Shown here one piece after another: positions 3,161 through 59,395 of a stretch of DNA of 64,000 bases. The notes under the pieces were generated by a model that worked only from the letters and a program-made list of their open reading frames with translations, was not told the DNA's origin and did no database searches. The stretch is taken from positions 7,072,546-7,136,545 of the forward strand of contig NZ_CP032157.1 of assembly GCF_003555545.1 (NCBI RefSeq). Reading direction: 5' to 3'. The position numbers were made by a program, and so were the translations under genes. The stretch comes from Paraflavitalea soli (lineage in GTDB: Bacteria > Bacteroidota > Bacteroidia > Chitinophagales > Chitinophagaceae). Every line of letters begins with the position of its first letter. Position 1 is the stretch's first letter.

Positions 3161-3625
3161 TTATTGTGCTTTGGCTCTTGCTTTGAGTGCCATGATGAAT
3201 TTAAACATAGCTGTGTACTGGGTTTCGAAAGCACTCTTCAGGAGAGTGACATCGGATTTGGAGAGCAGGCCATTGGGTTTCTGTTTGTGCAGGGAGTCCA
3301 TGAGTGTAATATTCTCGTCGAGGAGATCGAGCATATTGATCATGATCTTGTTTTTTTCAATGGCATTGTTGCGGATGCGTACCGTGCGTGATTTTACGCG
3401 CAGTCCTTCATAGAAGGGAAGGGAGTTGGTGTAAGAGAGGTCCTGGGAGCCGGGATTGGTCTCATGCTTCACGAAAAATGTGGTGGTGCTTTGCTGCATT
3501 TCGCTCAGGGTCTTGTCTGTTACCTCATCATAGGCAGATAGCAGGGTCACCTTGCAGGCAGTAAACAGGAAGATGCTTACAAGCAGAAATCCGGCGATCT
3601 TCTTTACTGTTGGTAGTGCTGTCAT
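3161..3625 (-). CDS. Small lipoprotein, unknown function
   Basis: A 154-residue protein with a typical lipoprotein signal: charged start, hydrophobic stretch IAGFLLVSIFLF, and lipobox FTAC with Cys at residue 24. The mature part is mostly helical and polar, with no recognised domain. It lies 29 bases before the small helical gene and 47 bases after the amidase gene, which implies co-transcription. It should be anchored to a membrane facing the periplasm or cell surface. Next to an amidase, an immunity or spanin-like role can be imagined but is not shown by the sequence. Confidence 0.75.
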   Translation of the reverse strand: MTALPTVKKIAGFLLVSIFLFTACKVTLLSAYDEVTDKTLSEMQQSTTTFFVKHETNPGSQDLSYTNSLPFYEGLRVKSRTVRIRNNAIEKNKIMINMLDLLDENITLMDSLHKQKPNGLLSKSDVTLLKSAFETQYTAMFKFIMALKARAKAQ

Positions 3626-56697: not shown

Positions 56698-57444
56698 TTA
56701 CCCTTCGAAAATTAAAGAGAATAGGATCATCTTCGAATTGAGCTTGTCGATGGTGTTGGAAAATTTGAGGTTCTGATCACGGGAATGGGTATTCATAAGC
56801 CCGTTGCTGAATTTGATCTCCGGGGAGAGAATAAATACGGGGAAGTAAAAGCTAAAACCGATGCCTGCTTCTACGCCAAAGTCATACTTCGACAATTTCA
56901 CCAGCCCCTCTGCGCGGCGGGCAGTAGAATTGGAAGCGAGGTCATATTCAAACTTAGCCCCACCAAACATATATACGCGGAAGTTACCGATCCTGTCGGA
57001 CCTGAACTTAAGGTGAATGGGCACTCCCACCAGGATCGATTCCACCCTTTTGGTCATCACTTTAGCCTCTTCTTTGGCGAGATCGGGCGTTTTTAAGGTA
57101 TAAGTGAGGTTTTTATACGAAAACAGTAATTGCGGGAAAATAGCCCTTACTTCAAAACGGGGGGAGAGCCGGTACGTGTGCATACCTGCCAGTCCGAAGC
57201 CACCCGCTCCTTGCGATTCAATAGACTGTATACTGTCCTGCTGTAAAAAGCTGGGGTGGTGGGTAACATTGAAGCGGGAAGTATTATAAATCAGGGCAAT
57301 GCCTAAAAAGTACTTCTTATCGTCGTGATTGGGAAGATTTAACTCAATTTCCTGCGCCCAGCTGCGGGAGCAGGCCGTCAATAAAGTGAGCACATATGCC
57401 AGGCGTATCAACTGGCTCTTTTTCTGCCGCAGTAAATAGTACAT
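56698..57444 (-). CDS. porT: PorT-family T9SS protein
   Basis: A 248-residue outer-membrane beta-barrel-like protein with a signal peptide (about 1-30, ending SRSWAQ). The body matches PorT/SprT in length and pattern: KKYFLGIALIYNTSRFNVTH, YRLSPRFEVRAIFPQLLFSY, VESILVGVPIHLKFRSDRIG, GVEAGIGFSFYFPVFILSPE. PorT is required for type IX secretion in Porphyromonas and Flavobacterium. It overlaps ubiE by 37 bases, and ubiE-porT adjacency is recurrent in Bacteroidota. The DUF1501 protein at 16-17.6 kb is a likely client of the system. Confidence 0.85.
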   Translation of the reverse strand: MYYLLRQKKSQLIRLAYVLTLLTACSRSWAQEIELNLPNHDDKKYFLGIALIYNTSRFNVTHHPSFLQQDSIQSIESQGAGGFGLAGMHTYRLSPRFEVRAIFPQLLFSYKNLTYTLKTPDLAKEEAKVMTKRVESILVGVPIHLKFRSDRIGNFRVYMFGGAKFEYDLASNSTARRAEGLVKLSKYDFGVEAGIGFSFYFPVFILSPEIKFSNGLMNTHSRDQNLKFSNTIDKLNSKMILFSLIFEG

Positions 57445-58160
57445 ATTCCTAAACTCAACCTTTTTAGTGAAGTGTCCGAAAACCCAACTTGTTGTAAAAT
57501 GTGTAAAAATGTTTCGCCTTCAGGAAATGCTTTAACTGATTTATTTAAATATTGATACGCGTCTTTATTCTTGGTCAGCCAGCGCCCCGCCTGGGGTGCT
57601 ACGATGTTCATGTACAAATTATAAAGCCCTTTAAACCAGATCTTTCGGGGTTTTGAGAACTCCAGTATCACCAGTTTCCCACCGGGTTTTAACACCCTGT
57701 ACATCTCACTTAGTCCTTTCTCCAGGTTTTGAAAATTGCGGACCCCGAAAGCGGCCGTAATGGCATCAAACGAATTGTCCTGGAAATTTATTGCTTCGCT
57801 ATCGCCCTTCTCTAATTCTATATGATTATTTAACAACAGCTTGGCAATCTTTTGCCTGCCCAGCTGGAGCATACCCTCAGAAATATCTATGCCAATTATT
57901 TTCCGGGGTTGCAGGTATTTCCAGGTGGTGATCGCCAGATCGGCCGTTCCCGTAGCCACATCCAGTACCTCCTGCGGCTTCAAATCTACCAATTCTTTGA
58001 TAGCCCGCTTGCGCCAGTACACATCGATGCCGCCGGAAAGAAAGCGGTTCATGAAATCGTACCGGAACGCAATCTGGTCAAACATACTGGCCACCTGCTC
58101 TTTCTTGCTTTGCTCAGATCCCTCGAAGGGCACTATGGTATCATGTGAATGATTGGACAT
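57408..58160 (-). CDS. ubiE: Demethylmenaquinone/ubiquinone C-methyltransferase
   Basis: I chose the ATG at 58160 (MSNHSHDTIVPFEGSEQSKK), giving 250 residues, the usual length. Family motifs are AFRYDFMNRFLSGGIDVYWR-like (IAFRYDFMNRFLSGGIDVYW), the SAM site LDVATGTADLAI, GIDISEGML, FGVRNFQNLEKGL and YRVLKPGGKLVILEFSKP. It adds the methyl group to demethylmenaquinol in the cytoplasm or at the membrane. The short overlap with porT suggests coupled translation. The upstream region holds the 11-bp array that separates it from the polyketide cluster. Confidence 0.95.
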   Translation of the reverse strand: MSNHSHDTIVPFEGSEQSKKEQVASMFDQIAFRYDFMNRFLSGGIDVYWRKRAIKELVDLKPQEVLDVATGTADLAITTWKYLQPRKIIGIDISEGMLQLGRQKIAKLLLNNHIELEKGDSEAINFQDNSFDAITAAFGVRNFQNLEKGLSEMYRVLKPGGKLVILEFSKPRKIWFKGLYNLYMNIVAPQAGRWLTKNKDAYQYLNKSVKAFPEGETFLHILQQVGFSDTSLKRLSLGICTIYCGRKRAS

Positions 58161-58273
58161 GGAGCGCAAAGTTAGGGGAAAGCAGCTGGTTTTCAGTATA
58201 GCGCGCGAGGGCTGGTCAAAAGGTTCAGGGTATTTGGATCGGGATTTATTCGCTTCATATTTACAGCTCATTT

Positions 58274-58394
58274 GGTATTAACCTGCTATTAACCTGAACA
58301 CTAGCCTTTGATAAACCGTAGATAAGCCGTCTCTTTAAAGGACAGCTTATCTACGGCTTATATACAGCTTATATACGGCTTATCTACAGGTTAT
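58274..58394. repeat. 121-bp inverted array in 11-bp register
   Basis: From 58274 the sequence divides into eleven 11-base units. The first five share an (A)TAACC/ATAAGCC core (for example GGTATTAACCT, GCTATTAACCT, GTAGATAAGCC). The last five carry the reverse complement core GCTTAT or GGTTAT (CTACGGCTTAT, ATACGGCTTAT, CTACAGGTTAT). The centre, CTTTAAAG (58333-58340), is itself palindromic. Segments 58311-58331 and 58341-58361 pair with only two mismatches. It lies between divergent ubiE and the UbiA-type gene and has no T run. Confidence 0.7.
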
Positions 58395-58516
58395 CCCAAA
58401 ACGAGAAGCGAATATGGAGGCTACCAGCGGCGGCGCGGACAGGGACCTGATCCAAAGCGGCCAGCCAGCGGGTAAGCCAGTTTTATCCAATCCGAATCGG
58501 TATATTTAATGCACAA

Positions 58517-59395
58517 ATGAGTTCCCACAGCTTGCTACAACGTTCTACTATACAATTACTTCGCTTTCATTTTTCCTTTTTCCTGCTGCCCGTATACCTT
58601 TTTGCCCTGGGGCAGGTGCCCGCTATACAGGCTTCCCATGCCTTGCTCATCTTTTTCATCCTGCATGTATTGGTCTATCCCGCCAGCAATGGCTATAATT
58701 CCTATATGGACCGGGATGAAGGGAGCATCGGGGGCATCAAAAATCCCCTGCAGCCCACCCGGCAATTATTCCTGGTAAGTGTGGTCATGGATGTTGTGGC
58801 GATGTTGTTGAGCCTGTTCATTGGCTATTTATTCACTGCCTGCATTATTGCCTATATACTGGCTTCCCGGGCTTATAGTTACCGGGGCATACGGTTGAAG
58901 CAGTATCCGCTGGCGGGTTATCTTACGGTGATCATTTTCCAGGGAGCCGTTACTTTTTTTATGGTTTATCATGGTTGCAGCGTAAACAAAACGACCGATG
59001 TGCCGTTAACCGGAATGATAGCGGCCAGTTTACTCATCGGGGGATTTTATCCGCTTACCCAGGTTTACCAGCATGAAGCCGATAAGAAGGATGGGGTGCT
59101 CACCATCAGTGCAGCATTGGGATACCGGGGTACTTTTATTTTTACAGCCATCATCTACAGCCTGGCCATGGGATTACTGGCTTACCTGTTCTATAGTACA
59201 GGGGAATTTGTAAAATTCCTGGTATTGGCAACTTGTATGCTGCCCATTCTCGTATATTTTTTTAAATGGGCAGGCGGCGTATGGAAAGATGAAAACGTAG
59301 CCGATTTTACCCACACCATGCGTATGAACCTGTTGGCATCGGTTTGTACCAATATTGCTTTCCTTATTTTATTAACCTGGAAATTATTTGAGTAA
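58517..59395 (+). CDS. UbiA-family prenyltransferase
   Basis: A 292-residue protein with about eight membrane segments. The first Asp-rich motif reads NGYNSYMDRDEGSIGG (Asn58, Asp65, Asp67) and the second HEADKKDGVLTIS (about 183-195), the pair that binds the prenyl diphosphate through Mg in UbiA enzymes. It should attach an isoprenoid to an aromatic acceptor in the membrane. The stop overlaps the start of the type III polyketide synthase gene by eight bases, which ties its substrate to that enzyme. MenA is the alternative, but the context argues for secondary metabolism. Confidence 0.85.
   Translation: MSSHSLLQRSTIQLLRFHFSFFLLPVYLFALGQVPAIQASHALLIFFILHVLVYPASNGYNSYMDRDEGSIGGIKNPLQPTRQLFLVSVVMDVVAMLLSLFIGYLFTACIIAYILASRAYSYRGIRLKQYPLAGYLTVIIFQGAVTFFMVYHGCSVNKTTDVPLTGMIAASLLIGGFYPLTQVYQHEADKKDGVLTISAALGYRGTFIFTAIIYSLAMGLLAYLFYSTGEFVKFLVLATCMLPILVYFFKWAGGVWKDENVADFTHTMRMNLLASVCTNIAFLILLTWKLFE

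Follow-up and report, generated by a model that had tools for sequence, protein, structure and literature searches.

Introduction

RAYTs are REP-associated tyrosine transposases of the Y1/HUH type. In the parts of PMC8049555 cited here, they are described as single-copy, vertically inherited genes accompanied by dispersed, non-autonomous REPINs, each composed of two REP sequences, with 69-235 REPINs in E. coli. Other repeats carry protein oligomers. CarH, a B12-dependent regulator, binds three or four tandem 11-bp direct repeats (nnnnTnnACAn) on one face of the DNA, overlapping the promoter (PMC9304148, in extract). BldC, a MerR-like protein of 68 residues, oligomerizes head to tail on direct repeats with 9-bp sites, AATTnnnn(C), whose number varies (PMC5859096, in extract). 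In parC of plasmid R1, two sets of five direct 11-bp repeats placed around the promoter are bound by ParR, which oligomerizes on the DNA, and specificity differs between such systems (PMC4949242; PMC9426499, both in extract).

Here, we describe an array that shares something with each of these. It resembles REPINs as a dispersed intergenic inverted element with one cognate gene, parC as ten 11-bp units in two fives on which a protein would oligomerize, and CarH operators as tandem 11-bp repeats that would be bound on one face. Unlike REPINs, it has ten 11-bp sites rather than two REP sequences and occurs in 8, 14 or 17 copies; the partner protein shows no transposase relationship, and its gene carries an array upstream in every close member examined. 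Unlike parC, it is chromosomal and multicopy, with inverted arms around a 13- or 14-bp centre. CarH operators differ from it in being direct repeats with TnnACA that overlap the promoter, whereas the arrays described here are 5+5 inverted, have another core and mostly lie upstream of promoter-like motifs where such motifs are found. BldC differs in site, spacing and size, the core here being YGGSWTAT at 11-bp steps and the partner protein having 264 residues. Oligomers on 9-11-bp repeats thus exist, but none of the three (BldC, CarH, ParR) has this 5+5 inverted layout in the extracts cited, and among open-licence papers we found no description of the 5+5 array or of the partner protein.

The window is the whole stretch of 64,000 nucleotides analysed, positions 7,072,546-7,136,545 of the Paraflavitalea soli genome (G000; 8.44 Mb, single contig). 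Other genomes and loci carry G and L numbers.

Results

An inverted array of ten 11-bp units

The array has a 55 + 13 + 55 bp layout (Table 1). We scored it with a free 5+5 inverted template, whose sole requirement is that each arm carry five 8-bp cores at 11-bp steps and that all ten be alike. It reached 66 of 80 at 58343 with a gap of 13; when the whole window was shuffled 100 times with dinucleotides preserved, the highest score was 51. Against the family consensus, unit parsing gave 69 of 80, and the 11-bp self-match of the array is the highest among all 121-bp stretches of the window. The array is genuine, and chance falls far short of it. Its two arms differ, with regular units on the right and increasingly degenerate ones toward the left end. 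Strong conservation across the eight copies in the genome extends over the right arm and the inner left units L1 and L2 (about 58311-58397); the outer left units L3-L5 (58275-58307) are degenerate, and it is mainly their 11-bp phase that is kept. We call an array '+' when its regular, or strong, arm lies on the right.

Table 1. Features of the array and its neighbours in the window.
Feature	Position	Strand	Basis or remark
Whole array: five left units, 13-bp centre, five right units	58275..58397	+	Unit parsing, free-template score
Weak arm: L5 58275-58285, L4 58286-58296, L3 58297-58307, L2 58308-58318, L1 58319-58329	58275..58329	-	Faces menG
Centre TCTCTTTAAAGGA, 13 bp, near-palindromic	58330..58342	.	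Innermost unit cores 21 bp apart
Strong arm: R1 58343-58353, R2 58354-58364, R3 58365-58375, R4 58376-58386, R5 58387-58397	58343..58397	+	
Core, 91-100% identity at eight intergenic places including that of the window	58311..58398	+	88-bp query; also 181-bp query
menG/ubiE methyltransferase frame (named by eye), weak-arm side	57408..58271	-	ORF list
UbiA-like prenyltransferase gene (named by eye), strong-arm side, reads away from the array	58517..59395	+	

The original prediction had described eleven units in 11-bp register. Its ATAA-type core units, near-palindromic centre, reverse-complement units and 11-bp steps all hold, but the centre is a 13-bp spacer rather than an eleventh unit, and the array accordingly spans 58275-58397. 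A 21-base pairing with two mismatches also exists (58310-58330 with 58375-58395), though it had been assigned to the innermost arms and in fact joins left units to outer right units. The proposed geometry of one unit per turn on one face of the DNA holds because the innermost cores lie 21 bp apart, two helical turns, and the array looks made for protein binding.

That the inverted arms serve instead as an RNA structure or a terminator seems to us hardly credible. The inner arms are indeed inverted repeats, with 14 to 27 of 27 positions paired across 58 arrays (the lowest being mis-centred). However, the window array has no terminator-like site, in agreement with the original prediction, and no Rfam family was found in nine array loci, the window region giving sub-threshold matches only. 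Inner-arm mismatches show no wobble bias toward either strand (83 G-T, 102 C-A, 189 other), and the arm linkers differ in G414 and G341. Extrusion, which had been suggested from the symmetry, likewise gains no special support from arms that lack a wobble bias and in some cases have different linkers.

On the weak-arm side, the true start of menG likely lies near 58160 (ATGTCCAATCATTCACATG), about 115 bp from the array. TAnnTTTG-type sequences are Bacteroidota promoter motifs, and one (TAACTTTG, minus strand) stands just before this likely start. Gene order around the UbiA-like gene is the same in G001 and G003 as in the window.

Copies are dispersed and their places are inherited

The 88-bp core query found eight places in G000 at 91-100% identity, all eight between genes; within these places, one arm also matched the other in part. 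A wider query of G000 (E up to 10) gave nothing further except short matches. By DNA similarity, the element is present in four of 99 genomes, G000 included, all of the same genus; it was not found in G002, a fifth member of the genus. Several places are shared. An array occupies the orthologous menG place, with the same neighbours, in G000, G001 and G003; the kdtA place is common to G000 and G003, the marR place to G000 and G004, and the partner-gene place (see below) to G000, G001 and G003. Within a second genus, G368 and G392 share five of five places compared. Among 80 menG loci in named contigs, only two are clear, both Paraflavitalea (P. pollutisoli H1-2-19X and Paraflavitalea sp. CAU 1676; scores 70 and 62). 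The third-best scored 52, in AT-rich sequence. A Niastella MAG, the closest relative by menG, reached only 48, with what by eye is a decayed half array at the right place.

Both the genome search and the look at relatives that had been proposed thus succeeded, with eight copies in G000 and the array in front of menG in G001 and G003. The idea was to fall if neither relatives nor the rest of the genome had such an array, and the eight copies and orthologous places clearly speak otherwise. Control of this divergent pair in particular does not hold up, as the seven other copies stand beside unrelated genes.

The same dispersal bears on an iteron-type replication or partition site, also suggested originally, which we consider extremely unlikely. 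The parallel lies in R1 parC, whose two sets of five repeats are bound by ParR (PMC4949242, in extract). The parC repeats are direct and the arms here inverted, and copies number 8 in G000, 14 in G368 and 17 in G392. These are scattered, with no constant position relative to dnaA and no clustering around it that holds in G000, G368 and G391 alike, and neither the array nor the partner protein has a match on plasmids. Clustering around dnaA was suggestive in G368 and G391, not in G000, and was dropped as a candidate feature; GC skew, taken over the window and twenty 20-kb samples, was uninformative.

Viral contigs gave two exact three-unit matches, neither a full array. One viral contig has a short 11-bp-spaced run of ATAAAC/ATAACC-type units without a second arm (L269:13690-13730). 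Elsewhere in G000, at 2.89 and 6.40 Mb, very similar stretches lie beside two 427-residue frames (L256, L258), perhaps a recent duplication.

One design, many spellings

A pattern search matched 38 of 394 Chitinophagaceae genomes, several with many arrays. Since the reversed control pattern matched 10 of 394 genomes (11 matches), chance probably accounts for many of those among the 38 that had a single match. Outside the family, a general four-unit pattern was found in three of 242 genomes of the class; only G572 exceeded the shuffle maximum, and it has direct units with no inverted arm.

We parsed 57 arrays, that of the window included. One 5+5 design fits them all; the centre measures 13 bp in 23 arrays and 14 bp in 34, although the fit permitted 12 and 15 bp too. 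The unit core is YGGSWTAT followed by three bases. In phase, units 1-5 of the right arm had mean scores of 7.4-7.5 out of 8, and those of the left arm 5.1-7.6. At unit 6 the mean fell to 2.9-3.5 on both sides, against 2.4-2.7 off phase; the template presupposes five units, and this drop is the test of that number. A few arrays have a sixth right unit (e.g. L155, L213, L216). Innermost cores lie 21 or 22 bp apart, and the ten sites are therefore on nearly one face of the helix. Four arrays of G414 and G341 (L241, L242, L251, L252) have arms that differ in their linkers, GGGC-type on one side and CTAC-type on the other, with a CGG(C/G)TTAT core common to both.

Some loci were left out of particular comparisons: L249 (no array seen) from that of places; L161 (contig edge) from unit parsing, the promoter-motif scan and the flank comparison; L161 and L244 from that of arm conservation; and L215 from that of G368/G392 flanks.

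Arrays tend to lie upstream of genes, and the neighbours scanned share no theme

The weak arm faces the start of an outward-reading gene in 43 of 57 arrays, by the weak-side gene call. Tandem contexts favour the weak arm facing the gene start by 25 to 7 (p 0.002), or 21 to 7 with orthologues removed by hand (p 0.013); 18 contexts are divergent and 6 of 58 convergent. Orientation here is the strand of the pattern match, which is arbitrary in L241, L242, L251 and L252, where both arms are regular. At L232, the array coincides in part with a probably spurious frame of 108 residues. On the weak side, the interval separating array and gene contains the TAnnTTTG motif on the gene strand in 12 of 43 cases and on the opposite strand in 2 of 43; for the strong side, the corresponding counts are 8 of 25 and 0 of 25. 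This gene-strand excess suggests that arrays tend to sit upstream of promoters.

A regulon theme was sought and dropped: the 24 neighbours scanned, of about 114, share no common pathway. They include malic enzyme, Kdo8P synthase, MarR, MnmG, photolyase and NIF3, as well as M3 peptidase, GNAT, ribosomal S6, SucC, a tail-specific protease and others. Two Kdo genes near G000 arrays may be a coincidence. The lack of a shared theme argues against an ordinary regulon.

These contexts bear on a further reading, that the array serves some unrelated transcription factor as an ordinary operator, a B12-dependent MerR regulator of the CarH/LitR type being one example. CarH does bind tandem 11-bp direct repeats (PMC9304148, in extract), the L229 array (G391) lies between a MerR-B12 gene and a gene that by eye resembles an ECF sigma factor, and the promoter-like motifs counted above fit an operator. 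However, TnnACA occurs in none of the five units in 33 of 57 strong arms and never in more than three, the MerR-B12 gene is the only one among the 24 themeless neighbours, and arrays track the partner gene family in 29 of 29 cases (see below). We regard this reading as very unlikely.

A partner gene family carries its own arrays

One neighbour did recur across genera. This gene, whose product has about 264 residues, lies directly downstream of an array in G000, G001, G003, G204, G355 and G368, and in these six genomes the weak arm always faces it. The G000 gene (G000:C1:4733120-4733911, 264 residues) has its array, of unit CGGCTTATCTA, about 130 bp upstream, and the window array shares this spelling. 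Adjacency to the partner gene was seen three times where 0.1 was expected by chance, the expectation being computed with about 6,700 genes, a guess.

A protein search of 24 genomes, a chosen selection, placed the family in 12 (E <= 1e-25): seven of the eight pattern-positive and five of the 16 pattern-negative genomes (Fisher p 0.027). Of 37 family matches, the 30 retrieved as loci were the ones examined. All 29 testable family genes have a 5+5 array upstream, its centre 80-353 bp away and its score 49-69, while 58 control stretches (29 downstream, 29 in-gene) reached at most 45. For 28 of these genes, the protein search had found them irrespective of arrays. The gene-distal arm is the more regular in 26 of the 29 linked arrays. 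Left out of the 29 were L290, with 84 bp upstream, and L309, with 191 bp (score 44). The downstream control of L290, a locus outside the 29, scored 49, which equals the weakest linked array (L302, 49).

The five genomes that had seemed array-free have differently spelled arrays, as the upstream regions of their family genes show 5+5 arrays. Spellings upstream of family genes include GGTAGCTTATA, CGGCTTAAGGG and GGGTAAGACAT in G414, GGCTAGATATA in G341, GGGACATCTAT and CCGTTACATAG in G146, and GCTGTATCTAT in G004. Paralogues within a genome have a unit similarity of at most 0.64 in 12 of 17 pairs and of 0.73-0.91 in the other five, against 0.46 at random. Protein identity and unit similarity correlate (Spearman 0.345; 24 of the 29 genes, giving 276 pairs; 0 of 2000 permutations as high), a correlation that could arise from physical linkage alone. 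It leaves out L295, L297, L302, L318 and L319, the last two probably mis-centred by the template. G205 has arrays and no family member at E <= 1e-25.

Were every family gene to have an array type of its own, a second spelling would be expected at scattered places as well. In line with this prediction, the spelling GGTAGCTTATA, taken from a G414 paralogue, recurred at ten G414 places. The eight of these that were fetched all hold full 5+5 arrays (scores 64-70), one of them gene-linked. A profile search (E <= 1e-5) of frames of at least 60 residues in the fetched loci found no gene remnant at the solo G414 arrays. The upstream arrays of 29 of 29 genes, together with the dispersed second spelling, indicate that the array of the window belongs to a gene-linked type and is one of its dispersed solo copies.

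We also scored eight weaker G000 homologues that are not among the 29. Six had upstream scores of 47-52; L255 (41) and L260 (42) were not above controls, with no array within 450 bp upstream. Distant homologues of the partner (21-24% identity) lie at L254 (1489-2244), L255 (1492-2250) and L257 (1477-2361), at 7.97, 5.41 and 5.68 Mb of G000, and further 11-bp-periodic stretches occur near them. About 500 bp upstream at L255 are four CTTCAGTATGC-type units in 11-bp period, and L257 has five GTTTACTTCAA-type units opposite GGCTATACCAC-type units, again in 11-bp period. Such periodic stretches suggest more array types of a less regular design. After the homologue, a second frame with a similar KTDPAF..TR motif follows at L254:2322-3056 and L255:2610-3338, and some family members may come as tandem pairs.

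Array sequence follows the genome rather than the place

The G000 cores are on average 92.5% alike (28 pairs). Eight comparisons of orthologous arrays between species gave 76-86% identity, about equal to the means of 79-82% for non-orthologous pairs from the same genomes, and the orthologue ranked first in only two of the eight. The comparison of G368 with G392 is similar: five orthologous pairs have a core identity of 0.917 and the 61 others one of 0.902, but the outer flanks are clearly orthologous (0.60 vs 0.30 left, 0.72 vs 0.47 right). That cores are about as alike between non-orthologous as between orthologous places, with flanks orthologous, indicates that places are inherited and that array sequence follows the genome. 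Such concerted evolution could reflect coevolution with a single reader protein, gene conversion or the two together.

In G368 and G392, a tail extends 40-45 bp past the strong arm, reading about CCGGGAA-GCACTATAGTAGC--CTTTACAAAGATTGTAT. The tail, some 40 bp in the comparison of the two genomes, tracks the core (0.71 vs 0.68), and sequence outside array and tail is locus-specific. The G392 tails are 77% alike over their first 20 bp; G355 arrays have a different tail, and other genomes little. At L222 (about 3240-3480, G392), a second, unrelated dispersed repeat adjoins the array, and it is also present in G368 (G368:C1:5180726-5181144, 3496076, 5558999, 2429151).

The partner protein has no recognized relatives

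Searches with 36 members of the family gave no Pfam match below E 0.04 (four models, one member each, best E 0.042, none a transposase), no PADLOC match and no relative among PDB sequences. NCBIfam and PHROGs gave no match for four members, and no match was found on plasmids or phages. Net charge in the 36 members is +5 to +15 over the first 105 residues and -9 to +3 over the remainder.

An AlphaFold model from the 36-member alignment (pLDDT 91.6, pTM 0.82) combines a C-terminal beta sandwich with short strands and a basic, helical region. The sandwich bears a weak likeness to C2 domains and the model shows no recognized DNA-binding fold. Foldseek against the PDB and a search of a viral structure library each gave nothing at E <= 0.001. 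The best VIA match was to C2 domains (Z 7.4, rmsd 3.2, 105 aligned) and covers residues 123-264 only, the N-terminal part being barely compared. An earlier six-sequence model was weaker (pLDDT 72), and its fold search gave none at E <= 0.001.

Discussion

The main rival to our reading is a mobile pair like REPIN and RAYT, in which a domesticated mobile-element gene copies the array to intergenic places, solo arrays are its non-autonomous offspring and any host role is secondary. Much of the distribution would suit it. In G000 and G414, one gene-linked array goes with several solo intergenic arrays of the same spelling (eight in G000 and eight fetched in G414, one linked in each); arrays are homogeneous genome-wide, 92.5% in G000 against 76-86% between orthologues; their presence within genera is patchy, as far as one pattern shows; and the G392 arrays have a common tail of about 40 bp. 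Against it, the partner protein has no transposase signature in Pfam, PADLOC, PHROG, NCBIfam, PDB or structure (E <= 0.001) and no match on plasmids or phages. No fresh insertion and no empty site was found, all five places compared being common to G368 and G392, and sequence past the array and tail is locus-specific. We judge the mobile-pair reading unlikely, if still worth serious attention.

We favour, as somewhat the better bet, a reading in which arrays both beside the partner gene and elsewhere in the genome serve as assembly sites for the partner protein, the window array being a solo copy of the gene-linked recognition array. The architecture of the arrays, their dispersal, the conservation of their places, their gene linkage and their differing spellings are observed; we infer that the partner protein is the reader of the array, that it oligomerizes there and that it affects the neighbours. 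Binding would be cooperative and mediated by the basic N-terminal part of the protein. Each 11-bp unit, and so each helical turn, would take up one protomer, all on the same face of the DNA, with assembly spreading from the centre outwards both ways, such that two head-on rows of five protomers would form on an array. The complex would control its own gene, and at solo arrays it would act on neighbouring promoters or on local chromosome structure.

More tentatively, and with rather less than even confidence, we propose that this is a two-part system, a protein with no recognized relatives and a private ten-unit address, which has been duplicated into many independent and largely orthogonal pairs per genome, each with dispersed addresses that are kept uniform genome-wide. 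If so, it would be a self-contained, diversifying DNA-addressing system that is neither a classical regulon nor a transposon.

The array and the gene family look like an undescribed DNA-recognition system. An uncharacterized protein family gains a concrete, testable candidate DNA partner. Because most paralogues carry their own spelling beside the gene, the natural gene-array pairs could serve as a ready table for deciphering a recognition code. The arrays would also be dispersed bacterial intergenic repeats whose sequence is uniform within a genome, whose places are inherited and whose partner protein shows no relation to REP transposases.
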